Shown piece by piece: positions 10,991 through 32,382 of a stretch of 64,000 bases of DNA. The stretch lies in NCBI GenBank assembly GCA_002840835.1, contig PHCQ01000006.1:62001-126000 (forward strand), given 5' to 3'. The position numbers were made by a program, and so were the translations under genes. Below the pieces are notes generated by a model. That model made no database searches, was not told where the DNA came from, and saw only the letters and a list, made by a program, of their open reading frames with translations. Numbering within the stretch: the first letter of the stretch is position 1; each line of letters starts with the position of its first letter. This DNA comes from Betaproteobacteria bacterium HGW-Betaproteobacteria-16 (GTDB lineage Bacteria; Pseudomonadota; Gammaproteobacteria; Burkholderiales; Burkholderiaceae_C).

Positions 10991-11192
10991 CCCGCCCAGA
11001 TTTCAATAGAGCAAGGGAGGGGGGTTCCACAGCAATCCGGTGCAGCGGGCTTCGGCGCGCGCGTATGTGATCGTCCATCGGTCACGCGCTCGTCGCGTCA
11101 GTTCGCTGCACCAGCGCCCGTCTGGGCGCACACCAAACACGTTCACCCGCTTGGGTTGATGTGACATTGCTGAGGTGGCCTGCAGGCACCAC

Positions 11193-12245: not shown

Positions 12246-12265
12246 CAACTCAAGGAAGTACCCCC

Positions 12266-12616: not shown

Positions 12617-12654
12617 CCAGTCAGCTATTCCTGCGCAGTCCGCCCAATTTCTCT

Positions 12655-12978: not shown

Positions 12979-13016
12979 ACGCGCCTCTTCAGTGATCAAC
13001 AGCCCGGGCTCCATCC

Positions 13017-15500: not shown

Positions 15501-15559
15501 GTCGCAGACACCGTTCAACGCCATACGAAAAAACACCGCTCAGGGAAGCCCGTCAAAAA

Positions 15560-15958
15560 ATGAAGTCCAGACATTGGTTGTTGTACGCAGCTTTGGCATT
15601 GAGCGCCGGTCATTGCGCGGCCCAGTCGTCCAGTTGCGACGGCGTCGACGCGCACGGTGAAATGGGCGGCGCCCACTTCAATTCCAACCTCCCGTATGAG
15701 CAAGACGTTTTTTCGTTCTGCCGCATCGGATACCCCCTGCATTGCTGGATTTCAGTGGCACCTTCGGCCGGCACCTGGGCCTGGATTCCCAACTGTTATC
15801 CGCAGAACAGCCAGTGGATTCCTTCATTCACCCAAACCTGCCCTCAGTCTTCCACGGAAGGCACCTGGCAAGGGTCCGGAGGTCCGATGGAGGCATTGGA
15901 GAAAAAGGGTGACCCCAACGGGAGCAACGGAATCAGCGATTGTGAGCACCGCCGATGA
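15560..15958 (+). CDS. Small secreted Cys-rich protein of unknown function (T4SS locus)
   Basis: 132 residues with a clear signal peptide (hydrophobic core LLYAALALSAG, cleavage probably after CAA). The mature part has six cysteines, suggesting three disulfides in the periplasm, and is rich in Trp, Gly and Ser. I recognise no family. It lies 60 bp after virB4 and its stop overlaps the start of the next lipoprotein gene (ATGA at 15955-15958). In Xanthomonas-type systems genes placed between virB4 and virB6 often encode effector/immunity cargo, so a periplasmic immunity or accessory role is possible but unproven. Confidence 0.6.
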   Translation: MKSRHWLLYAALALSAGHCAAQSSSCDGVDAHGEMGGAHFNSNLPYEQDVFSFCRIGYPLHCWISVAPSAGTWAWIPNCYPQNSQWIPSFTQTCPQSSTEGTWQGSGGPMEALEKKGDPNGSNGISDCEHRR

Positions 15959-16638
15959 GGTACTTCAGCCAATTGCCATTTCTGGCTGGCGATCGTTCCC
16001 GGTGGTTTGGACTGAACATGTTCATCTCATCGCTAGCGAGCCGCATTCGCCCCGCCGTCTCAGCGCCTGCGCTGCTGCTGGCCATTTCATTGCTTGTCGC
16101 TTGCGCAAGTCCATCCGAACCTGCACAACAGCGCACTGTCGTTGATCTCAAGGCGCCTTTTGAGCTCACTGGGCGTGCGCCCGCCCACTGGCCGGAATGG
16201 GACAACCATGGCCAAATACGATTCCATCTCGCGGACTGGTTGAAATCGCCGGGTGACTCATTGGCTGATCAGGCTGTCGTGCAAGTCACCCGCCAAAATG
16301 ACCGAGTGCTGGAAGTTCAGTACAGCTATCCGCGCGCCATGGTCGATGCGAAAGCACCGCCTATCAACACGGCCCAACAAGGCGTGTACCACTACTGCAT
16401 TGCGGCCCGTCTGGCCGCTCTTCAGGGCACCAGTCATTGGGGATCGGGAGACGCGTTTGACGATGTTCCGATGGAACAAGACCGATCCGTACGGCTATTG
16501 GCATTGGCGTTAGATGCAGACCATGCGCCATACCGCCATCTGCTGCCCGAACACTTGCGGGATTCGGTTGGTGTCCTGGAACTGAGAAAAGCACGCGCGG
16601 TTTGTGAAGCGCATATGCGACCGGAGTTTTTCTGGTGA
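15955..16638 (+). CDS. Putative lipoprotein of unknown function (T4SS locus)
   Basis: 227 residues from the overlapping ATG, or 206 from ATG 16018, which would place the signal sequence nearer the N-terminus. A hydrophobic stretch followed by LLVACAS forms a plausible lipobox. The mature part has two cysteines and no motif known to me; it is slightly acidic and looks globular. Translational coupling to the Cys-rich protein upstream suggests that the two are made together. It may be a periplasmic immunity protein or an accessory outer-membrane lipoprotein of the system. Confidence 0.55.
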   Translation: MRYFSQLPFLAGDRSRWFGLNMFISSLASRIRPAVSAPALLLAISLLVACASPSEPAQQRTVVDLKAPFELTGRAPAHWPEWDNHGQIRFHLADWLKSPGDSLADQAVVQVTRQNDRVLEVQYSYPRAMVDAKAPPINTAQQGVYHYCIAARLAALQGTSHWGSGDAFDDVPMEQDRSVRLLALALDADHAPYRHLLPEHLRDSVGVLELRKARAVCEAHMRPEFFW

Positions 16639-16873
16639 ATGCTGTTATCGAATTGAATGCTTGGCCAGACGCGCGTGTCGGCCAACCCATGAGTAAATAT
16701 GTCAGTTTGTCACGCGCCAGGGAGGAAGAGTTCACGGACGGTGTTGCGCCTTGTGCGCAACACCGGTCCAGTGGACCAACGATCAACACCTTGCAGCCTG
16801 GCTCAAGCTATGCGCTTGTGCTAGGGCGCAACTGAAACCCGTTTTTCGCACCACTCAATCAGGAGGAAAAGTT

Positions 16874-17269
16874 ATGCAAGCCGACAGGAAAAATCAGATC
16901 CAAACAGAGAAGCTGTCACTGAATCGCCGCACTTTGGCACGCTGGGCATTGGGGGGCTCGGCTGCATTGGCGCTGAGCGCATGCGGTGGGGGTGGAGGCG
17001 GTGATGATTCAGATGGCCAAGTGGATCTGTATGCGATATATGACCAAATCGTGCCTGGCATGTCTCGCGAGGATGTGGCGAATTTGATTGGGGAACCGCC
17101 CAACGATCGACGCACCATTGATTTTCAAATATGGCGTTACGGGAATCAGATGTTGTCAATCATGACGTTTGGGGATGAGCATTGGTTGGTTTCTGAGGTT
17201 ATTGTGGATAGCTTTGGAGGTTCTTTACCTCGTCTTGTAAAGACTTTTCCTCTTCCGGATAGGGATTGA
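16874..17269 (+). CDS. SmpA/BamE-like small lipoprotein (T4SS locus)
   Basis: 131 residues starting at ATG 16874, directly after a perfect AGGAGG (16861-16866). The leader contains RRTLARWALGG (Tat-like twin Arg) and a lipobox LSAC followed by a glycine run. The mature domain has the IVPGMSREDVANLIGEPP signature, as in SmpA/BamE/OmlA domains, then WRYGNQMLSIMTF. It may be an envelope lipoprotein stabilising the secretion complex or an orphan immunity protein. Base composition here is clearly more AT-rich than the flanking virB genes, suggesting separate acquisition. Confidence 0.65.
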   Translation: MQADRKNQIQTEKLSLNRRTLARWALGGSAALALSACGGGGGGDDSDGQVDLYAIYDQIVPGMSREDVANLIGEPPNDRRTIDFQIWRYGNQMLSIMTFGDEHWLVSEVIVDSFGGSLPRLVKTFPLPDRD

Positions 17270-17281
17270 TTTGGAGTCGAA

Positions 17282-18088
17282 ATGATTGCTGCTCGATTGA
17301 TTTTGCTATTTCATTTTTTCGTTGCCCCTCTGGTCGCACACGCCCAGTGGGCTGTTTATGATCATCGTGTGAACAGTGAGCTTCAGAGAATTAATGGAAT
17401 TCAGGGTTTGAATGTAGATTACACCCGCCTCGATGGTCATTTTCTAAATCAACGCGGCGGGACAGGCAATCAAGACCAACTTTGGGGAAGAGAGGGTGAG
17501 AGCCGGGCCACATTGAGATCCCTTGAAACACCTTTTGAAGCATTGGAGTTATCTGAGGATGACAGGCAGCGCTTCATCGGCACCGCGCAAGATTGTGGCG
17601 ATGAGCAATTGAACCGACAACATTTCAATGCCTGCGCAGGATTGCGCAACTTGCGCTTGCAGACCCTCAAGCAGAGCCAAGAGCTCCTGGTCACGCTGGA
17701 CCGCCGACGTGCCCAGATCGTGTCTTTGATCAGAGCAGCTCAGCAGTTGGAATCTGGGGGAAGCTCCATTGGTGGAGGAGGCTCTAGTGTTGGAGGCGGC
17801 TCTGGCATAGGGGGCGGCTCCAGTGCGGGAGGTTCTCAGCAACCAGGGGCCGGTCGTCTGCAGCGCTACCAGTTCGAACTGCAAGCGCAACAAGCCCTCA
17901 TGCAGGCCGACGCGATGCAACTGCAGGTCCTCATGGACGGCTACAAGCAGCGCGAAAAAATGTATGAGGTGCAGATGGCGGAGGCGCGTCGCAACACGGA
18001 CTCAGGGCGTACCGGGACAGCGGGCAGTCGCCCGCAGGCCGTGCCTTTTCCCACGGGTATCCGTCTATTCAATGCAGCCCGCAATTGA
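17282..18088 (+). CDS. virB5: VirB5-like minor pilin subunit
   Basis: 268 residues with a signal peptide cleaved near AHAQW. The mature protein is largely helical: QLNRQHFNACAG followed by long amphipathic helices on both sides, as in VirB5/TraC pilus-tip proteins. Position between virB4 and virB6 supports the call, although sequence signatures are weak. An unusual Gly/Ser-rich segment (residues ~160-195, repeats of GGGS-type units) splits the two helical parts. The 5' third is AT-rich compared with neighbours. It would sit at the pilus tip or periplasmic stalk. Confidence 0.65.
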   Translation: MIAARLILLFHFFVAPLVAHAQWAVYDHRVNSELQRINGIQGLNVDYTRLDGHFLNQRGGTGNQDQLWGREGESRATLRSLETPFEALELSEDDRQRFIGTAQDCGDEQLNRQHFNACAGLRNLRLQTLKQSQELLVTLDRRRAQIVSLIRAAQQLESGGSSIGGGGSSVGGGSGIGGGSSAGGSQQPGAGRLQRYQFELQAQQALMQADAMQLQVLMDGYKQREKMYEVQMAEARRNTDSGRTGTAGSRPQAVPFPTGIRLFNAARN

Positions 18089-18193
18089 CGCCATGAGTTT
18101 TCAGTTCTTGGCGGGTGATGCCACATCAGTGTCCCAGGCACCGCCATTCTGCTTGTGCGGCGGTTCAGCCCATTCAATGGAAGCGGCATAGGC

Positions 18194-19846
18194 ATGAACT
18201 GGGAAGAGTTTTTCAGATGCGAGATGTTGGGTCTTCTCGCTCTTTTTCCCCTCCCCGGCGGGTTTGGTGGCGGCCTGGATGACGCGGCCTTTTTCTGTCA
18301 CACCCGAGCGTTTCTGCTGCAGTCCATCTTTGAGCAAGCGGCTGCGGCATCTGAGCGCATTGCCAGAGCGATCGCCATGCTCTCCACCACCATCGTCACC
18401 GGGTGGGTCTTGTTTCATGGCGTGGGGCTGGTCTCCGGCACCCATCGACAGCCCGCGACGGTGCTGCTGATGAGTGCCATCAAGCTGGTGGTGATTGTTG
18501 CCTTGATCAATCTCACGTTGAACAGCACCAACGACATCACAGCATTCGTTTTGAGCTTTCAGGATCTGATCACGCAGGCTGTCGTGGGCGGAGACGGTTC
18601 TTCCGTTCGCACCATGGTGGACATCAACCTCTTCATCGCACAAGCGATCAATCAAATGGTCGAATCGATGGTGGGTGGAGGGCAGGCTGGTGTGGAAAGC
18701 AATCGGCTCACGAATGTTGCGGGTTTGCTGGGTCAAAGCGGCCCGGCCATGATCACAGCCGTCATGGTGATGCTGGCTGAAATCGCCATCGCCTTTGGGC
18801 TGATGCTTACACCGCTGTTTCTTTTCTTCCTGTTGTTCAAGGCCACGTCCAGTCTTTTCTGGTCGTGGGTCAAGTTTTTGATGGGCGCGTTCTTTTCCTT
18901 GGCCGCACTTGCCCTGGTTTCGGGTGTGGTGCTGAATATCACCGCCAGCTACGGGCTGGCAGTTGCACTTGCGATTTTTGCAAACGGTGGAGAGGCAACT
19001 GGAGGGACAGTGGATATCTCAGGCAGTGGCATGCGATTGGCTGCGCTGGGTGCACTGATGAGCGCTGTCGTGGTGTCTGTCCCCCCCATGATCATGCAGT
19101 TCTTTAACGCAGGCGTGGGCTTTGCTGCGGGTGCCATGGGCGGGATGATGGGGGGCGCCATGGCAGGCCGTATGGCCGGTGGTGGAACAGGCGTGCCGGG
19201 CATGGTGTATGGCGGAGCTGGCGGTTCGGGCGGTGGTGCAGGTGGCTCCGCTTCTGGAGCCGGGCCCTCACAGGGTGGCCAGCCAGGATTGCCCAGCCCA
19301 GGTCAAACTGCCGGTGAGTCCCATGGCGGTCCATCGGGCAACTCCACCACACATCAGTTGCTTTCCCGTGCAAATGGCGGATTGTCGGGCGACGAACCTG
19401 AGGGGCGTGCCCGTCCCTCAGGCATGCTCGGCCACAACAGCGAGCATGGAAGAACGTCGGCAATCCGTGACCAACAGTGGGGTTCTGGCCGCTCCAACTT
19501 TCGCTCAGAAGATGCCTATGTGGCAGAAATGGCTGATCGCCATGGTCTTGGCAACCGAAGCGCGCTGGACAGATCCGATGCCGACATTCGTTCACGGGCC
19601 GGTGGTTCGGCTCGGCCAGATGAAACAAACAATTCCGCCAGCGGGGCCAGGCAAACCCATGCCAATCGCGAAGAGGGGGCAGATGGTGGATCCTCCACGC
19701 CAACCCGTGGTGGTGAGAACCCGGACACCTCAGTGCATCGCACGCCCCCGCCCGGCGCCACGCCCACGCCATCTGCACAAAGTGAGACGGCCACGCGCCC
19801 ACAGGTGCCATGGGACCAACGAAACACGGAAGGCGTCCGATCGTGA
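18194..19846 (+). CDS. virB6: VirB6/TrbL-type polytopic T4SS channel component with long tail
   Basis: About 550 residues. Residues ~50-320 carry several long hydrophobic helices interrupted by a periplasmic loop, the VirB6/TrbL layout, including a conserved Trp in FLLFKATSSLFWSWVKF. Residues ~320-550 are Gly/Ser/Pro-rich then charged and polar, most likely a disordered cytoplasmic or periplasmic extension. The start at ATG 18194 is chosen because homologues begin close to the hydrophobic part; the frame also opens at 18155. VirB6 helps guide substrate through the inner membrane. It precedes virB7 by 49 bp. Confidence 0.8.
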   Translation: MNWEEFFRCEMLGLLALFPLPGGFGGGLDDAAFFCHTRAFLLQSIFEQAAAASERIARAIAMLSTTIVTGWVLFHGVGLVSGTHRQPATVLLMSAIKLVVIVALINLTLNSTNDITAFVLSFQDLITQAVVGGDGSSVRTMVDINLFIAQAINQMVESMVGGGQAGVESNRLTNVAGLLGQSGPAMITAVMVMLAEIAIAFGLMLTPLFLFFLLFKATSSLFWSWVKFLMGAFFSLAALALVSGVVLNITASYGLAVALAIFANGGEATGGTVDISGSGMRLAALGALMSAVVVSVPPMIMQFFNAGVGFAAGAMGGMMGGAMAGRMAGGGTGVPGMVYGGAGGSGGGAGGSASGAGPSQGGQPGLPSPGQTAGESHGGPSGNSTTHQLLSRANGGLSGDEPEGRARPSGMLGHNSEHGRTSAIRDQQWGSGRSNFRSEDAYVAEMADRHGLGNRSALDRSDADIRSRAGGSARPDETNNSASGARQTHANREEGADGGSSTPTRGGENPDTSVHRTPPPGATPTPSAQSETATRPQVPWDQRNTEGVRS

Positions 19847-19895
19847 CTGATCCGGTCGCAGCCCCACGTCTACTCAGAACAGAACATCCTCCCTT

Positions 19896-20327
19896 ATGAC
19901 ATCGCATCCCTATCTTCTACCCACCTTGCGACGCGCATTGCCCTTGATGGTGGGGGTTCTGCTCATGCAAGCATGCGCCACCACACCGCCCATGGCCGAA
20001 GACTTTGGTGACAACTGGAAGCCGGTGAACGTTCTGGCAGACACCCCCATGGAGATTCCCCTGAAGGAAGAGGTGGCCATGCACCGTTTCCAGCTGCTTC
20101 CCACAGACACCAGCTTGAGGGGCTTGCTGGAGCGCTGGGCCAGGGAATACGGTGGAACGCTGGACTGGCAGTACCCCAGCGACCTGACCCTGGTGTCGGC
20201 GCTGGAGCAGGCGGCTGACAACAACCTGCAGCGCGCCCTGACTGTGGTGCGGCGTACTTACAGCCCTCAGCGCTTGCGTGTGCAGGTGCTGGGCAATCGC
20301 GATCTGCGTGTCACGCGCTTGCCTTGA
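19896..20327 (+). CDS. virB7: VirB7 lipoprotein with extra C-terminal N0-like domain
   Basis: 143 residues, far longer than classical VirB7 (40-60). It has a signal peptide and lipobox (LLMQAC), then a short linker with the WKPVNVLADTP peptide that should bind VirB9, and an ~85-residue C-terminal domain (FQLLPTDTSLRGLLERWAREYGGTLDWQ ... SALEQAADNNLQRAL). That domain has the pattern of secretin N0 domains. This enlarged VirB7 is the known hallmark of the Xanthomonas bacteria-killing T4SS, where N0 domains form an outer ring of the core complex. The gene sits between virB6 and virB8. Confidence 0.85.
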   Translation: MTSHPYLLPTLRRALPLMVGVLLMQACATTPPMAEDFGDNWKPVNVLADTPMEIPLKEEVAMHRFQLLPTDTSLRGLLERWAREYGGTLDWQYPSDLTLVSALEQAADNNLQRALTVVRRTYSPQRLRVQVLGNRDLRVTRLP

Positions 20328-20395
20328 CGGCTGGCCTTTCCCCGCGATCTGCAGTCTGCCTGTCCAACGAAACCCGAACCCGGAACGCCTCACCC

Positions 20396-21295
20396 ATGGC
20401 TCTCTTCAAGCGCGAGATTTCTGAAGCCTCGCAAGACATCCTCAAGAAGTCGATCGACTTCGAGAGCAACACCATTTTTCAGGTCAGGCGCAGCGAGCGG
20501 CTGGCCTGGATCGTCACCTTCTGCTCCATGGCCGTGACTGTCTGCCTGGTGGCGGCCATTGCCTACATGCTGCCTCTGAAGGAAAAAGTGCCGTACCTGG
20601 TGACCGTGGATCTGAAGCGCAGCACCAGCACGGTCACCCACCTGCGTGACGACGTGGCGTATTCCGGCATTTATGCCAGTGAGGCGCTCAACCGCAGCTA
20701 CGTGGCGCGCTTCGTCCAGGCCCGCGAGGGCTATGACTGGGACACTATCAACGAACACGACTGGGAGTTTGTCGCGGCCATGTCGAACGACCAGGTGAAA
20801 AGCCTGTTCGTCAAACAGTTCGACGGCAGCGCCCAAAGCCCGGAGAAGCGCTGGGGGCGCAACGCCGCCATCCGGGTCAAGGTCAACAGCATCGTGTTCC
20901 ATGGCATGGACGAAGATCGGCGCAAGCCCCCGGTGGGCGCGACGGTTCGCTTTGAAAAATGGAAGTTCGACAAGGCGAGTGGCCGCAGCGAGTATCTGAG
21001 CAGCCACGTGGGCACGATGAACTACGAATACAAAACCAACCTTCGCATGAGCGACAGCCTGCGGCTGCGCAATCCACTGGGGTTTCAGGTGACGGCCTTC
21101 CGGGTCGACGACGAGTTCAATGCGCCGGTGTTCAAGTCGCAGGAAATGGAAGGGGGCATTCCATTGCTGGAAGAGGGTGAAGGCTTGAGCTTCCGTGGTG
21201 CAGATGCAGCCGCGCCCACCGTTCCTGCCACAACCAAACAAGAAGAGCCTGCGATCGGTCTGCCTGGTGCGCCTTCCACGCCCACCACTCAATGA
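20396..21295 (+). CDS. virB8: VirB8 inner-membrane/periplasmic T4SS assembly factor
   Basis: 299 residues from ATG 20396; the frame opens at 20324 inside virB7, but the family-typical start (FKREISEASQDILKKSIDFES) fits 20396. A single transmembrane helix (residues ~45-65) is followed by the NTF2-like periplasmic domain with YVARFVQAREGYDW and, later, NPLGFQVTAFRVD. The ~40-residue C-terminal tail is Pro/Thr/Ala-rich and probably disordered. VirB8 nucleates the core complex by contacting VirB9 and VirB10. Confidence 0.92.
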   Translation: MALFKREISEASQDILKKSIDFESNTIFQVRRSERLAWIVTFCSMAVTVCLVAAIAYMLPLKEKVPYLVTVDLKRSTSTVTHLRDDVAYSGIYASEALNRSYVARFVQAREGYDWDTINEHDWEFVAAMSNDQVKSLFVKQFDGSAQSPEKRWGRNAAIRVKVNSIVFHGMDEDRRKPPVGATVRFEKWKFDKASGRSEYLSSHVGTMNYEYKTNLRMSDSLRLRNPLGFQVTAFRVDDEFNAPVFKSQEMEGGIPLLEEGEGLSFRGADAAAPTVPATTKQEEPAIGLPGAPSTPTTQ

Positions 21296-21396
21296 CAAAC
21301 GCACCAATGTGAACAAGGCAGCCTTTCGGCTGTGACACCCATCGGCGTGAAGCCATGGATGTGGCCAATGAATTTTGATTTCAGGGAGTGAATGCA

Positions 21397-22149
21397 ATGA
21401 ACAGATCACGATGGTGGTCAGGCTTGGCGAGTGTGTGGTTGAGTGTGAGCCTTTGGGGGAATGCCGCCACCGCGCAGGAGGTGCGCAACGTGATGTACCA
21501 GCCCGATCAGGTGGTTCGCGTGAACACGGGACTGGGCATTGCCACGCAGATCGAGATCAGTCCGCAGGAGCAGGTGAGCAGTTTCGGTACCGGTTTCAGT
21601 GATGGCTGGGAGCTGGTGCGAAAGGACAACGTGTTCTTTGTGCGGCCCAAAAACGTGGACGTGGACACCAACATGTTCATTCGCACCAACATGCGCTCGT
21701 ACCTGATCGAACTCGTGGTCACGGCCACCAAGTGGCGATCCATTGAAGAGGCCAAGCGCGCTGGCGTGCAGTACAAGGTGCGCTTTGTTTACGGCAACGA
21801 AGCGCCACCGGACGCACAGAGTCCCCAGTCGGCCCTCAACCAGGTGCTGTCACCCACGGCCGCGCCGCTGAATTCCCAGTCCACCTACCACCTGAACTAC
21901 GACTACGCGGCGGTGCGGGAGGACTCGACCATCGTGCCCACCCGCGTGTACGACAACCAGCAGTTCACCTACGTGCATCTGCCTGCCATGGCCAATGTGC
22001 CTGCGTTCTTTGGGCGCAATGAACGCAACGGCGAAGAGTTTCTGGTGAACACCAAAACTGAAGACGGCGTGGTGGTGGTGCACGGGGTGTATCCCTATCT
22101 GGTGCTGCGGCTGGGTGCCGACATCGTCGGCTTGAGGAGGAACCCGTGA
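21397..22149 (+). CDS. virB9: VirB9 outer-membrane core-complex protein
   Basis: 250 residues; ATG 21397 lies 9 bp after AGGGAG, which favours it over the in-frame GTG at 21388. Signal peptide (ends near ATAQE), N-terminal beta domain (YQPDQVVRVNTGLGIATQIEI; FFVRPKNVDVDTNMF), then the C-terminal CagX domain (DNQQFTYVHLPAM ... PYLVLRLGADIVGLRR). It pairs with VirB7 and the VirB10 C-terminus to form the outer-membrane layer. The stop overlaps the virB10 start by one base. Confidence 0.93.
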   Translation: MNRSRWWSGLASVWLSVSLWGNAATAQEVRNVMYQPDQVVRVNTGLGIATQIEISPQEQVSSFGTGFSDGWELVRKDNVFFVRPKNVDVDTNMFIRTNMRSYLIELVVTATKWRSIEEAKRAGVQYKVRFVYGNEAPPDAQSPQSALNQVLSPTAAPLNSQSTYHLNYDYAAVREDSTIVPTRVYDNQQFTYVHLPAMANVPAFFGRNERNGEEFLVNTKTEDGVVVVHGVYPYLVLRLGADIVGLRRNP

Positions 22150-23225
22150 TGAATGAACAATTTCCAGCAGCAGACGGTCAACGGGCCGTCTTCAACGACA
22201 ACATGCCGCGACTTTCATCCGGCTTGTCCCGCGGCGTGAACAAGATGGCTGTGGCCTACGTGGTGCTGGTCTCGCTCGCCGTGATCGGCGCCACCCTGTG
22301 GATCACCAGCAGCGCGTTTTCAGCCGACGACAAGAAAAAGCGCGTCACCTTCGAAGAAGTGGAGGTGCCCAAGAAGCCTGAGTTCAGACCCGCGCCTCCG
22401 CCCCCGCCGCCTGCGAAATCTGCCGCTGCATTGCCTGTGTCAACCGCACCCTTGCCGCCTGTGCCGGAACCGCTAGACGATCTCCTGGAACGCCGCATGG
22501 CCAACCAGGACAACCTGGTGGCCGCGCAACAAGGGCAGGGCAACAAGAGCCCGTTCTTCCAGGACGAATTCTCATCGGTGAAGCGCGGTGCCGTGCAGCA
22601 ACTGGCCAATGCCGACTTCACCCTCACACGCGGCACCTTCATTCGGTGCGCCCTGGAGACCAAGGTCGTGTCCACCCATCCCGGCATGACATCCTGCATC
22701 GTGACCGAGCCCATCTATTCTGTGAACGGTCGGCGGTTGCTGGTGGACAAAGGGTCCAAGGTCACCGGCGAATACAAGTACCTGGACGAGCACTTTGACC
22801 GCATCGGCATCGTCTGGACCCGCATTCTCACCACCACCGGTCTGGACGTGCGCATCGACAGCGCAGGTACCGACTCGCTGGGGGGCGCTGGCGTACCGGG
22901 CATCTACGACGGGCATTGGGGCGAGCGCATTGGTGCTGCCTTGTTGGTGAGCCTGCTGGCCGACACCATTGACGCGGGGGCGCAGAAGTTTGCCGACCGA
23001 AACGACATAAGGGGCAGGGAGACCACCCAGTACGACAGCGATGGCCGGGTGGCGTCCACCCGGGTGGACCCCTGGGAATCGCACACGGCCACCACCACCA
23101 AACGCGCGGCCACGGAAATGCTGTCCCGCTCGGCCAACCGCAAGGCCACGGTCACGGTGCTCAACGGCACGGTCGTGAACATCTTTGCTGCGCGAGATGT
23201 GGATTTTTCCTCGGTGATGCGCTGA
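22149..23225 (+). CDS. virB10: VirB10 core-complex protein (TrbI-like)
   Basis: 358 residues with a GAGGAGG ribosome site (22134-22140) inside the end of virB9. An N-terminal cytoplasmic segment, one transmembrane helix (~38-58), a proline-rich periplasmic rod (PAPPPPPPAKS) and the C-terminal beta-barrel domain with the antenna (TLTRGTFIRCALETKVVSTHPG ... RILTTTGLDVRID) are all visible. VirB10 spans both membranes and transmits ATP-driven changes to the outer-membrane pore. Normal length; stop-start overlap with virB9 indicates coupled translation. Confidence 0.94.
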   Translation: MNEQFPAADGQRAVFNDNMPRLSSGLSRGVNKMAVAYVVLVSLAVIGATLWITSSAFSADDKKKRVTFEEVEVPKKPEFRPAPPPPPPAKSAAALPVSTAPLPPVPEPLDDLLERRMANQDNLVAAQQGQGNKSPFFQDEFSSVKRGAVQQLANADFTLTRGTFIRCALETKVVSTHPGMTSCIVTEPIYSVNGRRLLVDKGSKVTGEYKYLDEHFDRIGIVWTRILTTTGLDVRIDSAGTDSLGGAGVPGIYDGHWGERIGAALLVSLLADTIDAGAQKFADRNDIRGRETTQYDSDGRVASTRVDPWESHTATTTKRAATEMLSRSANRKATVTVLNGTVVNIFAARDVDFSSVMR

Positions 23226-23328
23226 TCAAGACGATCCAGCGACCCGTCGGCGCCTGCGAGTTGCAGGTGCCGGCCACGTTGCTGTCCACCCCGACCTCCC
23301 GCCACGCCATCGCCGAACTGTTCCTTTC

Positions 23329-24378
23329 ATGACGCCTCACGACTTTCCCGCAGAACCGGTTGCCGATATCTCGACCGAGTTTCTGGAATACCAGTACCAC
23401 GTGCTGGGCATCACGGCGTACCTGAACGATCCCGAGGTCACGGAGATCTGCATCAACCGTCCCGGTGAGCTGTATCTGGAAACACAGGCAGGTTGGCAAA
23501 CGGTGAAGGTGCCGGGCCTGACCTACGACCGCGCCAGGCAGTTCTGCACCACGGTGGTCAATGAGAGCAAGACCGGGCAGCGCATCACCCACACCGATCC
23601 AGTGGTTTCACTGACCTTCCCGACCGGGCAGCGGGCGCAGTTTGTGCTGCCACCTGCGGTGCCGGCCGACACGGTGTCCATCACCATCCGCCTGCCTTCA
23701 CGCTACGTGAAAACGCTCGACCAGTACCAGGCGGACGGTTTTTTCTCGCACATTCTGGAATGCAACGGAGAGGTCACCGAGCTGGATCGGGAACTGCTGG
23801 CGCTGCAGAAGGCGGGCGACTTTCATGGCTTCTTCAGCAAGGCCGTGCTCTACAAGAAAAACATCGTGGTGTCAGGCGCCACCGGCAGTGGCAAGACCAC
23901 GTTCATGAAGTCACTGGTCACGCACATTCCCTCGCATGAACGATTGATCACCATCGAAGACGCGCGCGAACTGTTCATTGATCAGCCCAATGCCGTGCAT
24001 CTCATCTATTCGCGCGGGGGGCAGGGGACCGCCAATGTCACCTCCAAAGGTTGCATGGAAGCCTGCCTGCGAATGAAACCGGACCGCATCATCCTGGCCG
24101 AAATTCGTGGCGATGAGTCGTTCTACTACATCCGCAATTGCGCATCGGGTCACCCGGGCTCCATCACCAGCTGTCATGCCGGCAGCACCACCCAAACCTG
24201 GGACCAGATGGCCTTGATGGTCAAGGCATCACCCGAAGGGGCAGGGCTGGGCTTCAACGAGATCAAGCGCCTGCTGATGCTGACCATCGACATCGTGGTG
24301 CACATCCAGGCGCATGCCGGCCGACGCTACATCACCGGCATTGATTTTGACCCGGCTCGCAAGCTGGCGATGGTCTGA
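23329..24378 (+). CDS. virB11: VirB11 traffic ATPase
   Basis: 349 residues. N-terminal domain, then the hexameric secretion ATPase core with Walker A GATGSGKTT (K189), the Asp box (TIEDARELF), Walker B (MKPDRIILAEIRGDE) and the His box (SGHPGSITSCHAGS). VirB11 toggles with VirB4 and VirD4 to switch between pilus assembly and substrate export. It begins ~100 bp after virB10 and is followed by a lipoprotein gene and virD4. Confidence 0.95.
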   Translation: MTPHDFPAEPVADISTEFLEYQYHVLGITAYLNDPEVTEICINRPGELYLETQAGWQTVKVPGLTYDRARQFCTTVVNESKTGQRITHTDPVVSLTFPTGQRAQFVLPPAVPADTVSITIRLPSRYVKTLDQYQADGFFSHILECNGEVTELDRELLALQKAGDFHGFFSKAVLYKKNIVVSGATGSGKTTFMKSLVTHIPSHERLITIEDARELFIDQPNAVHLIYSRGGQGTANVTSKGCMEACLRMKPDRIILAEIRGDESFYYIRNCASGHPGSITSCHAGSTTQTWDQMALMVKASPEGAGLGFNEIKRLLMLTIDIVVHIQAHAGRRYITGIDFDPARKLAMV

Positions 24379-24426
24379 CACAGCCATCGCCAGCCAAATT
24401 TTTTGACATATCAGGAGGAAAGAAAA

Positions 24427-25368
24427 ATGAACGTGTGGAACCTTGTTCGTCGAATCAGTGCAGTGAGCATTGTGTTGTGGTTGACCGGCTGTGCCCTGTC
24501 GCCTCGTCCTGCTGCGCCTGAACTGGCTGTGGTGCAAACGCAAGCCGAGTCCGAAGCCGAGGCCTACCGATTCAGATTTGAGGCAGGCGACAGCCCGGAC
24601 ACAGACGGCGGTTCGGTGGGTGCCGGGTTCATTGTGGTGACGCAAGGCGAAACCGAAGTGCAGAGCATTGCGCATGATTTCGGCATGTCCGTGTCTGAGC
24701 TCGATCCTGCCCAGTGGTTGACCGTCGCGGATGCCAATGGCGACGGCCTGCCGGATTTCCTGGTCCCGAACCGCAGAGGTGAGGGTGACGCGCCCGTGGT
24801 CGGCAGCCTCTACCAGTTTGACGAAGGGTCTGGGGAGTTCGAGCTGGTAGAAACGCTTTCCAACATCGGCCTGATCGAAGTCACCACCCCTGGATGCCTG
24901 ACGATCACGCAAGAGGCCGCAGACACCCGAGTGGCGCGACAGGAGCATTGCTACTCGCCCCAGGCGGGGCGCTGGGTCCGGCAACTGTCACTGCCAGGGC
25001 TGATGGAGGAGGGGGATCGGCTGGCATCGGCGTCGCCCGAAGCCCAGCAGGCCTGCGCCGGGCCTACGCCGGCGCTGAGCGAATGCCGTCGCTTGCGACT
25101 GACCACCGATCGCGCCTTGCAGGCCGCATTGAAGGAGCACAAGCAGGCCCAGCGCCCCGCACTGGCGCGTGAACGCGGGCGCGTGTATGCGCAGCGCTAT
25201 GCCGTCAACCTCGATGCCAGCCACCGCTCGTGGCTGCGATACCGTGACAACCGCTGCCTTGCCTACGTGCGTGAGCAAGGCTTCCAGGCGCCACTGTTCC
25301 AGTCGGCCAATGAGGCCTGCCGTTTCCGCCTCGCGCAATGGCAACTGCAGCAGTACCAAGTGCAATGA
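24427..25368 (+). CDS. Putative immunity lipoprotein: XAC2610-like (FG-GAP-type) plus LprI/DUF1311-like domains
   Basis: 313 residues, starting at ATG 24427 after AGGAGGAAAG. Lipobox LTGC shows export as a lipoprotein. The middle region has DANGDGLPDFLVP followed by SLYQFDEGSGEFELVETL, the FG-GAP/VCBS-like pattern seen in the Xanthomonas immunity protein XAC2610 family. The C-terminal ~110 residues look like LprI/DUF1311 (C-x-R-LRLTTD ... SHRSWLRYRDNRC ... NEACRFRLAQ), a family linked to lysozyme inhibition. Placement between virB11 and virD4 of a killing T4SS makes an immunity role against a peptidoglycan hydrolase likely. The cognate effector is not in the window. Confidence 0.6.
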   Translation: MNVWNLVRRISAVSIVLWLTGCALSPRPAAPELAVVQTQAESEAEAYRFRFEAGDSPDTDGGSVGAGFIVVTQGETEVQSIAHDFGMSVSELDPAQWLTVADANGDGLPDFLVPNRRGEGDAPVVGSLYQFDEGSGEFELVETLSNIGLIEVTTPGCLTITQEAADTRVARQEHCYSPQAGRWVRQLSLPGLMEEGDRLASASPEAQQACAGPTPALSECRRLRLTTDRALQAALKEHKQAQRPALARERGRVYAQRYAVNLDASHRSWLRYRDNRCLAYVREQGFQAPLFQSANEACRFRLAQWQLQQYQVQ

Positions 25369-25438: not shown

Positions 25439-27415
25439 GTGAGCAAGGCGAAATGGGTGTTCCTGGCTGGTGTGCTTCTTGTCTCGGTGCTCTGCGGGGC
25501 CTACCTGAGTGGCCTGCTGTTGTTCTGGCGGCTCGACATGCCTTTGCATCAGGTGGCATTGACCAGCTATGGGTCGTACTGGCTGGCGCATGCGGACCAC
25601 CCCTTTCACGGTTCAACCATCAGTTCCAGTGGACTGCTGGGGTTCGGACTTCCGCTGTTGCTTGGCGCGGCCGTGGCATTGGCAGCGGTACTGCACCGGC
25701 GGCCGAACCTGTATGGCGACGCGCGATTCGCCACCTTGGCCGACCTGCGTGGCAAGAACATGCTCAAGGCCGAGGACACGGCGCTGGTGGTGGGCAAGAA
25801 AGACGGCAAGTTCCTGTACTTCAACGGCCAACAATTTGCCATGGTGGCCGCGCCCACCCGGTCGGGCAAGGGCGTGGGCATCGTGATCCCCAATCTTCTG
25901 AGTTACCAGGGTTCGGTTGTGGTGCTCGACATCAAACAGGAAAACTTTGACTTGACCAGCGGCTTTCGGGCCAGGTACGGCCAGTCTGTCTATCTGTTCA
26001 ATCCCTTTGCTGAAGACTTTCGCACCCATCGATGGAATCCGCTGGGCTATGTGTCGCCAGACCCCAATTTCCGGATCAGCGACCTGCAAAGCATTGCCGC
26101 CATGTTGTATCCCACGGTCAGTCTGCACAAAGACCCCTTCTGGGCCAACCAGGCGCAGAACGCCTTCATGGCTTTTGCCTTGTACGCCTTCGAGCAGGCG
26201 AGCTACCTGTCGAAGCGATTCAAGTCGGACACCCCCATGGCCGCTCCCACCATGGGGAGTCTGTACCGGCTGGCATCGGGCCGGGCAGGGCAGGACTTCA
26301 AGAGTTACCTCAAGGAACTGGCGAGCTGGTCACTGCTGAGCCAGCCAGCGCGCACCGCATTCAATACGCTGCTGAGCCAGGCCGACGAAACCTTTGCCAG
26401 CATCATGGGCACCTTCAAGGAGCCTCTGAACCCTTGGTTGAACCCCGTGGTTGACGCCGCCACCGCCGCCAACGATTTTGACCTCCGCGAGGTGCGCAAA
26501 CGGCGTATGAGCATCTACGTGGTGATTCAGCCAAACAAGCTGGCCGAAAGCCGGTTGATCCTCAACCTGTTCTTCAGCCAGTTGATCAACCAGAACACCC
26601 GGGAGCTCCCCCAGGCCAACCCGGAGCTGAAACACCAGTGCCTGCTGCTGATGGATGAGTTCACCAGCATCGGCCGGGTGGACATCATTGCCAATGCGGT
26701 CAGTTTCATGGCCGGCTACAACCTGCGACTGATGCCCATCGTGCAAAGCCTTTCGCAACTTGAGTCAACCTACGGCCGCGAAGTGGCGCGCACCCTGCTG
26801 ACCAACCACGCGCTGCGCATCATCTTTGCACCGCGCGAACAGCAGGACGCCAACGAATACAGCGAGATGCTGGGCTACACCAGTGTGCGCAAAAGCAGCG
26901 TGAGCAGGAGCCGCTCTCGCGAGTCGAGCTACACACGCAGCGAGAGCGAAGAACGCCGCGCCTTGATGCTGCCGCAGGAACTCAAGGCACTGGGTGAGGA
27001 CAAGCAGATCCTCATCGTGGAAGGCATGGCGCAACCGGTGATGTCCCAAAAGATTCGCTACTTCAAAGAGGCCGATTTCAAGCGCCGCCTGGAGCCGCGC
27101 GTGGTGCCCCCGCTGCTGCAAATGGACAACGGGCGAAGCAGCGGAATCGCGCCCTCTGGTGCCCCGACTGCCGCCGAGACGGGCTTGCCTCCGGACAGTG
27201 TGATGCACATGCAAGCCAGGTCACCGCAGGCAACACCGTCGACAGCCGCTGCGGAGCAGCCCGGCAACGGTTTGCCGACAAGCTCTGGACGCATCCCCCC
27301 CGAATACACTGGCCTGGGGGGTATCGTGGGCGAATTTGATCGTGCGCTGTCGCATGTCCGGGCCAACACCACCGGGCAGTTTTCAGGCCTTTCCTCGCTC
27401 GAGGTTCGGGCATGA
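25439..27415 (+). CDS. virD4: VirD4 coupling ATPase
   Basis: 658 residues starting at a GTG preceded by AAGGGAGG. Two N-terminal membrane helices (residues ~5-30 and ~60-85), then the nucleotide-binding domain with Walker A APTRSGKGVG (K144) and Walker B CLLLMDEFTSIG, plus the all-alpha domain that receives substrates. The ~110 C-terminal residues are Ser/Pro-rich. VirD4 recruits effectors to the channel; in X-T4SS it binds the XVIPCD signal. Being next to a protein that ends in such a domain fits that role. There is no relaxase nearby, so this is unlikely to be a DNA-conjugation system. Confidence 0.95.
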   Translation: MSKAKWVFLAGVLLVSVLCGAYLSGLLLFWRLDMPLHQVALTSYGSYWLAHADHPFHGSTISSSGLLGFGLPLLLGAAVALAAVLHRRPNLYGDARFATLADLRGKNMLKAEDTALVVGKKDGKFLYFNGQQFAMVAAPTRSGKGVGIVIPNLLSYQGSVVVLDIKQENFDLTSGFRARYGQSVYLFNPFAEDFRTHRWNPLGYVSPDPNFRISDLQSIAAMLYPTVSLHKDPFWANQAQNAFMAFALYAFEQASYLSKRFKSDTPMAAPTMGSLYRLASGRAGQDFKSYLKELASWSLLSQPARTAFNTLLSQADETFASIMGTFKEPLNPWLNPVVDAATAANDFDLREVRKRRMSIYVVIQPNKLAESRLILNLFFSQLINQNTRELPQANPELKHQCLLLMDEFTSIGRVDIIANAVSFMAGYNLRLMPIVQSLSQLESTYGREVARTLLTNHALRIIFAPREQQDANEYSEMLGYTSVRKSSVSRSRSRESSYTRSESEERRALMLPQELKALGEDKQILIVEGMAQPVMSQKIRYFKEADFKRRLEPRVVPPLLQMDNGRSSGIAPSGAPTAAETGLPPDSVMHMQARSPQATPSTAAAEQPGNGLPTSSGRIPPEYTGLGGIVGEFDRALSHVRANTTGQFSGLSSLEVRA

Positions 27416-27557: not shown

Positions 27558-27902
27558 ATGAGCGACATCACCGAACACCCTCCTGTTCCCCAACTGCTGC
27601 AAGAAAAGCTCAAGAACTACCCCGAGATCATTGCCGATCTTCAGGGCTCCCTCAATAGAGGTGGCCGTAGCCCGGGGATGAGCAAAACCCTGCTCACCGA
27701 TCAATTTGAAGCTGCCATTTGGCGGTTGGAAGATGGGTTGAGTCGCTGCATGTCTGACGCCGCCGAAGAACTCAAACTTGTTGAATCCGGGTGTGACCTA
27801 GTGCAGATCGCCAAGGCTGAGGCGAAGTGGAGGTTGATGGCCAATTGCCGAAGGAGCGTTTCTGATTGCCTGGACGAACTGGGGACCTTTTTTGGTCGAT
27901 GA
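27558..27902 (+). CDS. Candidate immunity/antitoxin protein, copy 1
   Basis: 114 residues, no signal peptide, mostly helical and acidic (many KLK, EELK, AEAK segments), so a cytoplasmic protein. No family recognised; it is not obviously epsilon antitoxin. By hand alignment it is ~70% identical to the protein encoded at 27999, with identity strongest in residues 1-50. Two such genes directly before a zeta-type toxin, in the effector position of a T4SS locus, suggest they neutralise that toxin inside the producing cell. The ATG at 27558 is shared in context with copy 2. Confidence 0.65.
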   Translation: MSDITEHPPVPQLLQEKLKNYPEIIADLQGSLNRGGRSPGMSKTLLTDQFEAAIWRLEDGLSRCMSDAAEELKLVESGCDLVQIAKAEAKWRLMANCRRSVSDCLDELGTFFGR

Positions 27903-27998
27903 ACCTATAGAAACGCGGGAGCGTTCATCATGCCAAGCGAGCAGACAAGCCTCTCAGACTAGATTTTTTCATTGTTAACCCACCGGCAAGGAGCGCCC

Positions 27999-28343
27999 AT
28001 GAGCGACATCACCGAACATCCTCCCGTTCCCCAACTGCTCCAAGAGAAGCTGAAGGACTACCCCGAGCTGATTGCCCAGCTTCAAGAAACGCTCAACAAG
28101 GTCGGGCGATCGCCCCAAATGAGCAAGACCTTGCTGACGGATCAGTTTGAATCAGCTATTTGGCGACTCGAAAACCGCTTGGATCGTTTCGCGTCTGAAG
28201 CTCGCGAAGAACTCAAGGCTGCAGAGGCCGCGTCCGATCCAGAGTTGATTGCAAAGGCCGAAGCCAAAGAGTTGCTGATGCACAGTTCCAGGAGCAGCGT
28301 TGTTCGTTGCCTGGAAGAGTTGGGTTCGTTCTTTGGTCGATAA
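27999..28343 (+). CDS. Candidate immunity/antitoxin protein, copy 2
   Basis: 114 residues, paralogue of the preceding gene (~70% identity by eye). Conserved parts are the first ~19 residues (with HPPVPQLLQEKLK), MSKTLLTDQFE, AIWRLE, IAKAEAK and the C-terminal FFGR. The variable positions cluster between residues 50 and 80 and at 93-102, which may be the toxin-contacting surface. It lies only 21 bp before the toxin start, closer than copy 1, so it is the likelier cognate partner. Cytoplasmic localisation fits a toxin acting on a cytoplasmic nucleotide sugar. Confidence 0.68.
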   Translation: MSDITEHPPVPQLLQEKLKDYPELIAQLQETLNKVGRSPQMSKTLLTDQFESAIWRLENRLDRFASEAREELKAAEAASDPELIAKAEAKELLMHSSRSSVVRCLEELGSFFGR

Positions 28344-28364: not shown

Positions 28365-30878
28365 ATGTCACCCGATCATCCAACCCTTCCAAGCGCCCAA
28401 CACCAGCAAATTCTGTTCGCAAGGGTATTGGGCGATGAGGACTACACACGCGTCAGTGGCGGACACGAGAAGCCACGCGCCATCATCCTCGCTGGCCAGC
28501 CAGGTGCAGGAAAAGGTGGTCTTACAAGGGCGGCCAATTCCGAGTTCAACAACAACATAGCCGTCATCGACCCCGACGATCTGCGCCGTCATCACCCCCA
28601 TGTCGAGGACTTCCGACGTCAGCACCCCTACACCTGGGCCGATGACACGCACAGCGACGCCAGTGAGTGGGCGAAGGAACTGCGCGCCGATGCCATTGCG
28701 CAACGCAAACATCTCGTCATCGACACCACCGCACCCAAAGCGGAACTGATTCAAGACCTGCAGGGCCTGGGCTATCAGGTCGAGGTGCGTGCCATTGCGT
28801 CGCATCGGTTGGAGAGCGAGCTGGGGGTGGACAAGCGTTTCGCAGAAGGCTTGGAGGAAGACGGCTATGGTCGCTACGTCCCCGAAGCGAAACGCAACGA
28901 GATCTACCAGAACCTGCCAGATCAGCTGGACGACGTGCTAGCCAGAACGGGCGTTCCGATCCAGATATTCGATCGCGAAGGCCAGGGGCACTACGACTCA
29001 CGTGTCACACCGGCCTTGGCGCCCGGTCAGGCGCTCGAAGCTGCTCGCGAAGCCCGGCTCACGCCCGAGCGACTCAAGGAACTGGATGAAGCCTTGGTCG
29101 CCCAGCGTGAATGGCACCGCTCATTGCCCGAGCGCCTGCCCAATGCACACGTGGACCCACCGACCAGCGCGAACCTGCTGGCACAACGCAGCGAACTCCG
29201 GGTGGAAGAGGGCGTGACGCAACTGCACCAGCAAGTCCAGCGGTACCGCATCGCTGCCTCTTCCCGCGACGGGCCGAATCGCCCTACCGAGATGGAAGCC
29301 GCGCGCCATGACCCCCCGGGGCAGCGCGAGCCCGCGTCGGCTTCGCGGGACGGTCCGCCGATCCGGGCGGGCGCGGTGCTCAAGGGCGTGGGTGTGGCCG
29401 GCACGGCCTACGGGTTGTACGAGGGTTACGGCGATTTCCGCGATGCGGTGGACGGCGCGCGTTCCACACGCGAGCAGCACGTGCGCGGCGCAGAGGCCGC
29501 CACCGACATGGGCGTGCGTGCCACGGTCTCGGGCACCTCGGCCGTTGTGGGGGGCGTGGCCGGGGGTGCTGCGGGCACTCTGGTGGCGCCCGGCGTGGGG
29601 ACCACGGCGGGCGCCGTGGTGCTGGGCGGCGCAGCCGCAGTGGGTGCCGAGCACGCCTATGAAGACTCACGGGTACAGCATTGGAGCCGCGCGCTGGGGC
29701 GGGAGTTGGGTGCCATCAGCTACGACCATTTCTCCAAAGAAGGCCGGCTGCTGCGCCAGCTCGAATCCCTGCGCGAGGACCTGGGCGAAGCCGGCCGTGC
29801 AGCCGACCGCGTGCGCCTGCAAGGCGAGCTCGACAGGGTGGGCGAGGCCTTCAAGACCGAAGCCGAACGCAACAACGCCTACTTCCAGGGGCGCGAGGCC
29901 ATCGAACAGGCCTGGCCAGCGATGAGCCAGCGCTTCGACGGACTGGACAAGGGCGACGTGGTTGATGCCTATCAGGCGCGCCTGGACGCGGGCATGGACG
30001 CTCGCCGCGCGGTGACGGCGGCCTACAGCGACACCGTGCACGAACAGGTGCAGCCTCGCGGCCTGCCTCACGTGCCGCAGGCCGACTACGGCGCCTACAA
30101 CGACCGGGCGCTCGCCAGTGCCTGGCAGCGTTTCTCGCGCGAAGCCGAACAAGGTGGGCAACAGATCGAGACGCTGGAGCGCCGTGGACCGGAAGAGGCC
30201 AACGTGCCGCTGGTGGGCGGCCTGATCGGGCGGCATTACCACGACGCCGAACTGGAGAAACTGCGCAACGCGCAATGGGAGGCCGAGGGCCATCGGTCGG
30301 CGATCGAGGGTGAACTGCGCGAGAGAGGACTGAGCATTCCGCAGGTACCGGCGACGCGCCCGGCCAATGAACAAACGATGGAGCGCCAGCGTGATCAGAG
30401 CGCAATCGAAACACCAGCCACTCGGCAGGCTGTCCCCATCGAGGTACCGGGTCGAACCCATAGCGGTCTGTCCACAGACGCCAAAGAGGACCATGGGCTC
30501 AGCCCGGCGAGCCGCCAGTTGCTGGCAGACAGTGAGCGAGAAGTGGCGCAGGTGGCCCGCCAGCATGGACTGAAGTGGGACCAGGGGCTGAGCAACACCT
30601 GCTGCGCAGTCGCGTCAGCGGCCCGGCAGGCCGGCATGACTCAAGTGAACCTGTTCAAGGCCGATGCGGGTGTGATCCGCTTTGGGCAGTACGACGGCTA
30701 CACCATCCGCGAAGGCGAGATCGACGCGGTGGCTGCGGCCAACGCGCCGCAGTCCGATTCATTGCAGCGCCTGGCTGCAGTGGACCGGCAGACTCAGCAG
30801 GACGAAATCCGCGAGCAGCAACAACTGGCGGCGATGGCGCGTGCGGAGCCAGAGGAACAGAGGGCGCGGGCGATGTGA
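28365..30878 (+). CDS. Zeta-toxin effector with C-terminal XVIPCD-like T4SS secretion signal
   Basis: 837 residues. Residues ~35-220 are a zeta/PezT kinase: Walker A GQPGAGKG (K50), the substrate-binding VIDPDDLRRHHP segment (D69-P78) and a downstream DTTAPKAEL strand; family members phosphorylate UDP-N-acetylglucosamine and block wall synthesis. Residues ~350-440 are Gly/Ala-rich and hydrophobic (glycine-zipper-like), perhaps a membrane-passage element. Residues ~470-650 are charged helices. The last ~125 residues (NTCCAVASAARQAGMTQV ... EIDAVAAANAPQSDSLQRL, then a Q-rich tail) match the layout of the XVIPCD recruited by VirD4. No signal peptide. Read as a bacterial-killing effector; a simple intracellular toxin would not need the C-terminal half. 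Confidence 0.82.
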   Translation: MSPDHPTLPSAQHQQILFARVLGDEDYTRVSGGHEKPRAIILAGQPGAGKGGLTRAANSEFNNNIAVIDPDDLRRHHPHVEDFRRQHPYTWADDTHSDASEWAKELRADAIAQRKHLVIDTTAPKAELIQDLQGLGYQVEVRAIASHRLESELGVDKRFAEGLEEDGYGRYVPEAKRNEIYQNLPDQLDDVLARTGVPIQIFDREGQGHYDSRVTPALAPGQALEAAREARLTPERLKELDEALVAQREWHRSLPERLPNAHVDPPTSANLLAQRSELRVEEGVTQLHQQVQRYRIAASSRDGPNRPTEMEAARHDPPGQREPASASRDGPPIRAGAVLKGVGVAGTAYGLYEGYGDFRDAVDGARSTREQHVRGAEAATDMGVRATVSGTSAVVGGVAGGAAGTLVAPGVGTTAGAVVLGGAAAVGAEHAYEDSRVQHWSRALGRELGAISYDHFSKEGRLLRQLESLREDLGEAGRAADRVRLQGELDRVGEAFKTEAERNNAYFQGREAIEQAWPAMSQRFDGLDKGDVVDAYQARLDAGMDARRAVTAAYSDTVHEQVQPRGLPHVPQADYGAYNDRALASAWQRFSREAEQGGQQIETLERRGPEEANVPLVGGLIGRHYHDAELEKLRNAQWEAEGHRSAIEGELRERGLSIPQVPATRPANEQTMERQRDQSAIETPATRQAVPIEVPGRTHSGLSTDAKEDHGLSPASRQLLADSEREVAQVARQHGLKWDQGLSNTCCAVASAARQAGMTQVNLFKADAGVIRFGQYDGYTIREGEIDAVAAANAPQSDSLQRLAAVDRQTQQDEIREQQQLAAMARAEPEEQRARAM

Positions 30879-31038: not shown

Positions 31039-32382
31039 ATGACCCGCACCTATTTCGGCACCGACGGCATTCGAGGCACCGTGGGCCAGCCACCGATCAC
31101 GCCCGATTTTGTGTTGCGCCTGGCGCATGCGGTGGGGCGTGTGCTGCGGCGCACGGAAGCGCACCCCACGGTGCTGATCGGCAAGGACACGCGGATTTCC
31201 GGCTACATGCTGGAGAGTGCGCTGGAGAGTGGTTTCAACTCGGCCGGGGTGGACGTGGTGCTGCTCGGGCCTGTGCCTACACCGGCCGTGGCCTACCTCA
31301 CGCGCGCCCAGCGCGCGAGCCTGGGCGTGGTGATCTCGGCCAGCCATAACCCGTTTGCCGACAACGGCATCAAGTTTTTCAGTGCACAAGGCACCAAGCT
31401 CAGCGATGAATGGGAGCTGGCGGTGGAGGCCACGCTGGCAGAGGACCCGGTGTGGGTGGATTCGGCCGGTCTGGGCAAGACGCGGCGTCTGGACGACGCG
31501 GCGGGGCGCTACATCGAGTTCTGCAAGAGCACCTGCTCGCATCTGTTCTCGCTCAAGGGCCTGAAAATTGTGGTCGATGGGGCCAACGGGGCGGCCTACA
31601 GCATTGCGCCTGACGTGTTCCATGAACTGGGCGCCGAGGTGGTGCGCATTGGTTGTTCGCCCGATGGCCTGAACATCAACCACAACGTGGGCGCCACGCA
31701 CCCGCAGGCACTGGTAGAAGCGGTGAAGCAGCATGGGGCAGATTACGGCGTGGCGCTGGATGGTGATGCCGACCGGCTGCAGATGGTGGACGCCAGCGGG
31801 CGCTTGTTCAATGGCGACGAGTTGCTGTACCTGATCGCCTCGGACCGCATCGCGCGCGACATCGACGTGCCCGGCGTGGTGGGCACGCTCATGACCAACA
31901 AGGCAGTGGAAGTGGCCTTCCGCAACAAGGGGGTGAAGTTCGTTCGCGCCAAGGTTGGCGACCGCTATGTGCTGGAAGAACTCGAACGCCATGGCTGGAC
32001 GCTGGGCGGCGAGGGGTCTGGTCACATTCTGGTATTGGACAGGCACACCACGGGCGACGGGCTGGTGTCTGCCCTGCAGGTGTTGCATGCCTGCGTGGAC
32101 AGCGGCAAGACCATGGCGCAATTGCTGTCGGAGGTGGCGCTGTTTCCACAGACGCTCATCAATGTGAGACTGAAGCCCGGGCAGGATTGGCGCAGCAACA
32201 CACGCCTTGAAGAAGAAACGCGCGCCGTAGAGGCCGAACTGGGTGATTCGGGGCGGGTGCTGATCCGCCCCAGCGGAACGGAGCCGCTGCTGCGTGTGAT
32301 GGTGGAAGCGAGCAATGCGCAGCAGTCGCGCAGCTTCGCCGAGCGGCTGGTGGACGCCGTCAAAAGCCAGGCGCAAGCATGA
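31039..32382 (+). CDS. glmM: Phosphoglucosamine mutase
   Basis: 447 residues with the GlmM signatures: FGTDGIRG near the N-terminus, the catalytic phospho-Ser loop [10 protein letters not shown], the Mg-binding DGDADR and the phosphate-binding [10 protein letters not shown]. It converts glucosamine-6-P to glucosamine-1-P on the way to UDP-GlcNAc. In many proteobacteria glmM follows ftsH-folP; here the upstream neighbour is the zeta-toxin gene of the T4SS locus. It overlaps the following GNAT gene by 4 bp. Confidence 0.97.

Follow-up and report, generated by a model that had tools for sequence, protein, structure and literature searches.

X-type type IV secretion systems (T4SSs) are recognised by the presence of all 12 subunits and a VirB7 protein with an N0 domain, as laid out in excerpts of PMC6536674. 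In the same work (Sgro et al. 2019), the domain list in the Figure 5 legend for effectors of these systems includes Zeta_toxin (PF06414); the fusion of a zeta toxin to the secretion domain XVIPCD is already known, having been listed there in 2019. The authors who described TfdA of Stenotrophomonas posit that it is injected into the periplasm and then passes the inner membrane, and in their BLASTP search its central region matched proteins including members of the zeta family (parts of PMC11253643). The locus described here lies in a window of 64,000 nucleotides, which is the whole stretch of DNA that was analysed (positions 62,001 to 126,000 of contig PHCQ01000006.1, assembly GCA_002840835.1, Betaproteobacteria bacterium HGW-Betaproteobacteria-16). 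It encodes a protein of 837 amino acids (28365..30878, plus strand), which consists of a zeta-type kinase domain, a central region referred to as the chassis and an XVIPCD tail. Read together with two small genes upstream, it is probably a bacteria-killing effector delivered by the T4SS next to it, which is predicted to be of the X type, with a zeta-type kinase as the toxin and the upstream pair as its immunity proteins.

In the proposed mechanism, the XVIPCD would bind to VirD4, and the effector would be injected into a neighbouring Gram-negative cell, in which the chassis probably helps the N-terminal domain to pass through the inner membrane. The kinase would then phosphorylate a small nucleotide-type metabolite in the cytoplasm of the victim, thereby stopping its growth. 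In the cytoplasm of the producer, the two proteins of 114 amino acids would bind the kinase domain and confer immunity.

Kinase domain and candidate substrates

The Zeta_toxin domain covers residues 34-214 (28464..29006, plus strand); its PF06414 profile score exceeds the curated cut-off, and its predicted fold is that of zeta. In the alignment, the catalytic residues of zeta have equivalents in the window kinase (K46=K50, D67=D71, T118=T122, R158=R158, R171=R170), including the catalytic aspartate D71 (28575..28577, plus strand), whose role is taken from the description of Asp67 in PMC3062530. A first-pass annotation of the sequence had proposed a zeta/PezT kinase at the N-terminus, and the profile match, the zeta-like predicted fold and the conserved K50 bear this out. 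The kinase was compared with its clade, which is defined by the kinase and not by the tail and comprises 39 loci (all 36 of L006-L041 and the three truncated loci L053, L058 and L059), and with 24 canonical zeta loci, namely those in which a kinase open reading frame (ORF) was found. Neither position 51 nor the Arg120 position was part of the patterns with which the kinase loci were fetched. Clade kinases keep K50 (38/38), D71 (37/38) and, where these positions are covered, R158 and R170 (35/35); L039 was left out of the active-site counts, the ORF used having no P-loop.

The P-loop GQPGAGKG (residues 44-51, 28494..28517, plus strand) has a glycine, G51, where Ser or Thr is usual, and it lacks the Walker-A Ser/Thr of the zeta/PezT kinases of UDP-N-acetylglucosamine (UDP-GlcNAc). 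Among clade kinases, 36 of 38 have Gly at position 51, and 23 of 24 canonical zetas have Thr or Ser there, a contrast confounded by taxonomy, since the canonical loci are mostly from metagenome-assembled genomes of Firmicutes; GKG is present in 107 of the 120 database relatives listed, and three proteobacterial plasmid zetas have two Ala and one Thr. Adenylate kinases also have a Gly following the P-loop Lys. The loss of the Ser/Thr could be taken to mean that the kinase is decayed and inactive and survives only because the other parts of the protein are maintained; however, the retained K50, D71, R158 and R170 point to active-site constraint, and Gly at 51 is the state of the clade rather than damage to one copy, which makes such a decay very unlikely. 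Decay of this single gene was rejected as an explanation because the change is clade-wide. In AvrRxo1, a change of the Walker-A Thr removed toxicity, and the product was not wholly lost (excerpts of PMC5491322), so that Gly at this position is worth an assay. In Burkholderia, Agrobacterium and Pseudomonas, zeta proteins of 479 to more than 800 amino acids are encoded on conjugative plasmids (L003, L004, L005), two of them near conjugation genes.

In zeta, UDP-GlcNAc is contacted by Glu100, Arg120 and Thr128, as given in PMC3062530. None of the 35 clade kinases covering the Arg120 position has an Arg, whereas 20 of 24 canonical zetas and all three plasmid zetas have one. In the window kinase, Arg120 is replaced by P124, Glu100 aligns with K104, and the Thr128 loop is four residues shorter, a shortening found in the Hydrogenophaga loci but not in those of Xanthomonadaceae. 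The exchange of Glu116 for Asp is typical of the clade, but it also occurs in two of the three plasmid zetas and was not used as an argument. The first-pass annotation had assumed action on UDP-GlcNAc. Although the catalytic core is conserved, the lost and altered contacts speak against that target. Furthermore, other zeta-fold kinases are reported to use UDP-N-acetylmuramic acid (UNAM) at its 4'-OH, or NAD. An effector that specifically 3'-phosphorylates UDP-GlcNAc, as is known for PezT, is a possible but somewhat doubtful form of the proposed mechanism.

Secretion tail, secretion locus and central chassis

The C-terminal XVIPCD of X-T4SS effectors is represented by residues 708-837 (30486..30875, plus strand), which adopt the XVIPCD fold in the predicted model. 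No XVIPCD-like tail was found in the 24 canonical zeta proteins, and the five Hydrogenophaga tails of the clade match a profile built from their own kind. The tail of a second group of Hydrogenophaga effectors (group B) has no direct match to the window tail type (E=0.14), but each of the two matches the Xanthomonadaceae tail type (5e-6 and 5e-5, respectively). The fusion of a zeta toxin to a T4SS secretion tail noticed in the first-pass annotation is confirmed, and its view of the protein as an effector beside an X-type T4SS, rather than a classic toxin-antitoxin module, is supported by prediction; its overall interpretation is thereby supported in part, the UDP-GlcNAc target as proposed being unsupported. 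The same genome encodes two probable further effectors, judged by their sequences: a GH19 protein (L002, 739-1863), whose tail is 41% identical to the window tail (PF20410, 18.6 bits), and a phage-lysozyme protein (L071, 274-1770) with an XVIPCD-like tail (15.3 bits), both scores being below the cut-off.

The effector gene lies downstream of a virB gene cluster (11175..24378, plus strand), in which virB1, B2, B4, B6, B7, B8, B9, B10 and B11 were recognised, and of the gene for the coupling protein VirD4 (25439..27415, plus strand; PF02534, E=1.6e-114). Ten of the 12 T4SS subunits, VirD4 included, were therefore recognised in the window, VirB3 and VirB5 not being assigned. VirB7 is a lipoprotein of 143 amino acids, with a TcpQ match below the cut-off (E=7.9e-5), and its size agrees with the large VirB7 that X-T4SSs have. 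Directly before virD4, and in the same place in 6/6 fetched relatives, is a gene for a lipoprotein (24403..25368, plus strand) resembling XAC2610, the immunity protein of the X. citri effector XAC2609 (NF047539, E=5.3e-8, 33.2 bits against a cut-off of 35; lipobox seen by eye); no effector gene adjoining it as its own partner was identified. The source genome, of a water- or soil-type bacterium, comprises 5.8 Mb in 232 contigs, and its nearest named relatives are Hydrogenophaga. Close virD4 relatives (E<1e-270) are present in 20 of 67 genomes of the genus.

The central chassis (residues 320-660, 29322..30344, plus strand) has a glycine-zipper hydrophobic part at about 338-440 and is common to non-zeta effectors; the region is poorly modelled, with a pLDDT below 50 at residues 303-365 and 385-438. 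Over residues 320-807, the window protein is 57% identical to the protein P0093, whose N-terminus is a different one that weakly resembles ADP-ribosyl cyclase (E=0.27). Among the 67 genomes of the genus, 16 contain the chassis in 18 places, joined to a zeta domain (8), a cyclase-like domain (4) or a weakly TNT-like domain (6; best E=0.0096, in 4/6 members). All 16 fall among the 20 genomes with a close virD4 relative (Fisher p 4.3e-12, which is too small, as the genomes are related). In a chassis search at the family level, 3 of 299 genomes were matched, all from the same genus. With the central part of a Stenotrophomonas zeta effector as query, related chassis were found behind a cyclase-like domain and behind one further domain, whose PIN-like identity (13 proteins around P0255, by eye) was unsupported by Pfam and PDB sequence searches. 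A hydrophobic segment within residues 281-560, mostly at about 350-400, occurs in 30/30 zeta proteins of at least 700 amino acids; the 19-residue mean hydropathy reaches 1.3 in 27 of them and 1.26-1.28 in three, and no kinase part reaches 1.3.

The chassis also bears on the substrate, which could be another nucleotide metabolite such as NAD, the substrate of AvrRxo1. The loss of the UDP-contacting Arg fits this, as does the weak resemblance of two other chassis N-termini to NAD-acting enzymes, since a profile of four P0093-type N-termini picks up 9ro8, an ADP-ribosyl cyclase toxin (E=6.3e-4, about 51 positions), and the other resembles TNT. However, the overall fold of the window kinase is nearer to zeta than to AvrRxo1, the chassis argument is one by association, the cyclase-like profile equally matches 9ouf, deposited as a ribonuclease (E=7.2e-4, about 51 positions), and PDB matches of the TNT-like profile all lie at E=0.86 or above. 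A substrate of this type is a serious candidate, held at slightly under an even chance.

An XVIPCD survey gave 50 matches in four genomes; stretches were fetched for 49, and 43 distinct ORFs were recovered. The chassis profile, which was built mostly from zeta effectors and is biased towards them, matches four of the 43, all zeta. Of the other 39 ORFs, 20 were scanned against Pfam: six contain peptidoglycan-binding or -degrading domains, three are lipase-like, one is calpain-like, one contains a GH-E domain, two have only domains below the cut-off, and seven the XVIPCD alone. Two XVIPCD proteins of another type (L136, L139) have a very hydrophobic segment near residue 290 (19-residue mean about 2.4).

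Several observations count against the effector proposed here. The window P-loop lacks Ser/Thr at position 51 and also at 52, so that activity is not assured. The XVIPCD of the window scores below the cut-off of PF20410, and among the 36 clade members L006-L041, complete and partial ones together, an XVIPCD-like tail is recognisable in 23 and not in 13 (seven short and six long frames). Finally, the effector L141 has a GH-E nuclease domain and no chassis, which led to the rejection of the chassis as a requirement for cytosolic action.

Immunity candidates and the effector slot

An immunity-type gene upstream of the toxin gene is a feature of X-T4SS effectors, and the window has two putative copies (27558-28343), encoding paralogues of 114 amino acids with 70% identity (27558..27902 and 27999..28343, plus strand), the second 21 bases upstream of the effector gene. 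A sequence homology search yielded 56 relatives, from which a family profile was made to search the fetched loci in every frame. The first round of this search found an immunity-type gene upstream in 39/39 clade kinase loci and in 0/24 canonical zeta loci; in 20 of the 39, the copy closest to the kinase gene overlaps its start (gap -1). In L039, an insertion element, recognised by eye, lies between the kinase start and the remainder, so the immunity gene precedes a stub. Within the genus, the family occurs in 8 of 67 genomes, the same eight whose chassis protein carries a zeta domain (Fisher p 1.5e-10, again too small for related genomes; 8/8 vs 0/8 among chassis genomes alone). Because the family tracks the zeta version among chassis genomes, its distribution points to the kinase rather than the chassis as its partner. 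The small upstream protein probably protects the producer from the effector.

By eye, the window copies have no signal-peptide-like start, and section 14 of PMC6536674 describes immunity proteins of some cytosol-acting effectors without a lipoprotein signal. Some copies from Xanthomonas have a longer N-terminus. The immunity protein is predicted to fold as a helical hairpin (mean pLDDT 84), for which Foldseek found nothing in the PDB at E<=0.001. For the window copies, neither Pfam nor NCBIfam gave a match better than 0.0086; across 68 family members, Pfam matches scatter over 21 families with at most five members each (best E=0.0011). Searched against PDB sequences, the family profile matches scattered helical chains, the best being a spike-derived helical construct (E=6.5e-4). 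An epsilon-like partner was considered but gained no Foldseek support at E<=0.001. Epsilon is not among the 50 Foldseek matches listed, which excludes nothing. A conventional zeta-epsilon addiction module that lies beside the T4SS by chance would also show a zeta domain and fold with a small upstream gene; however, the XVIPCD fold, the close virD4 relative in 16/16 chassis genomes and the absence of the immunity family from all 24 canonical zeta loci make it extremely improbable. Single frames holding two immunity domains were seen in L014 and L039, and Lysobacter pythonis (L015, L021, L053) has several tandem immunity genes with short zeta stubs between them. Immunity-family genes also occur in L104 and L105, 3.3-kb stretches that match neither the kinase nor the chassis nor the tail.

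The region to the right of virD4 was fetched as a slot from six relatives. A cyclase-like chassis protein occupies four of the slots (in L109 with a further gene pair), and one, in G314, is empty, with about 160 bases between the ends of its virD4 and glmM matches. The remaining slot, in a near relative, holds another pair between virD4 and glmM, genes for 304 and 579 amino acids without a Pfam match (L106, 3098-5763). The gene presumed to be glmM (31039..32382, plus strand) is the conserved right flank of the slot in 5/6 cases, the empty one included, and does not belong to the system. Its position was rejected as a sign of a functional connection with UDP-GlcNAc because the flank is the same whatever the slot holds. 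In G313, the order is immunity family, zeta kinase remnant (residues 47-126), small gene and TNT-like chassis protein; in G343, the order is the same, but the immunity copy is interrupted and the kinase is unmatched. The stretches L161 (755-3821, with a zeta kinase remnant) and L160 (723-3577) have an immunity gene upstream of a TNT-like chassis effector. This looks like a replacement of the toxin end on a retained chassis. A fuller reading, in which the chassis is a dedicated inner-membrane entry module for exchangeable toxins of a cytoplasm-delivery class of X-T4SS effectors, the kinase is re-tooled to a substrate other than UDP-GlcNAc and the immunity family is not epsilon, is tentative and, taken as a whole, rather unlikely.

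Comparison with known systems

A chassis common to unrelated toxin domains, with natural swaps, makes the route of X-T4SS toxins to the cytoplasm testable. For zeta effectors in Xanthomonadaceae and Burkholderiales, the partner family, which has no Pfam match, is an immunity candidate. The altered active site calls for a substrate test before these proteins are labelled cell-wall-precursor toxins. In the literature searched, with subscription papers mostly outside it, neither a functional test of a zeta X-T4SS effector nor the immunity linkage, active-site change and chassis swapping described here were found.

Like the window protein, the zeta effectors of PMC6536674 combine a Zeta_toxin domain and a C-terminal XVIPCD in genomes with an X-T4SS, usually with an immunity gene upstream; in the parts of that paper drawn on, they are named in the figure legend only, without analysis of the immunity family, active site or chassis, and the window XVIPCD is divergent in comparison. 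TfcB (7r6s) has a GH19 domain before its XVIPCD, and its chain of 316 residues is too short for the central chassis. AvrRxo1 is a type III effector that acts in plants and phosphorylates NAD (PMC5491322, in part). With zeta and PezT (1gvn, 3q8x, 2p5t), the window kinase shares the fold and the catalytic K, D, T, R and R, but it differs in the Walker-A Gly, the lost Arg120, the shorter loop, the added chassis and XVIPCD and the partner protein. TfdA of Stenotrophomonas is likewise an XVIPCD effector with a large central region matching zeta family members; however, its N-terminus is a GHH nuclease, according to the excerpts of PMC11253643, whereas that of the window protein is a kinase.
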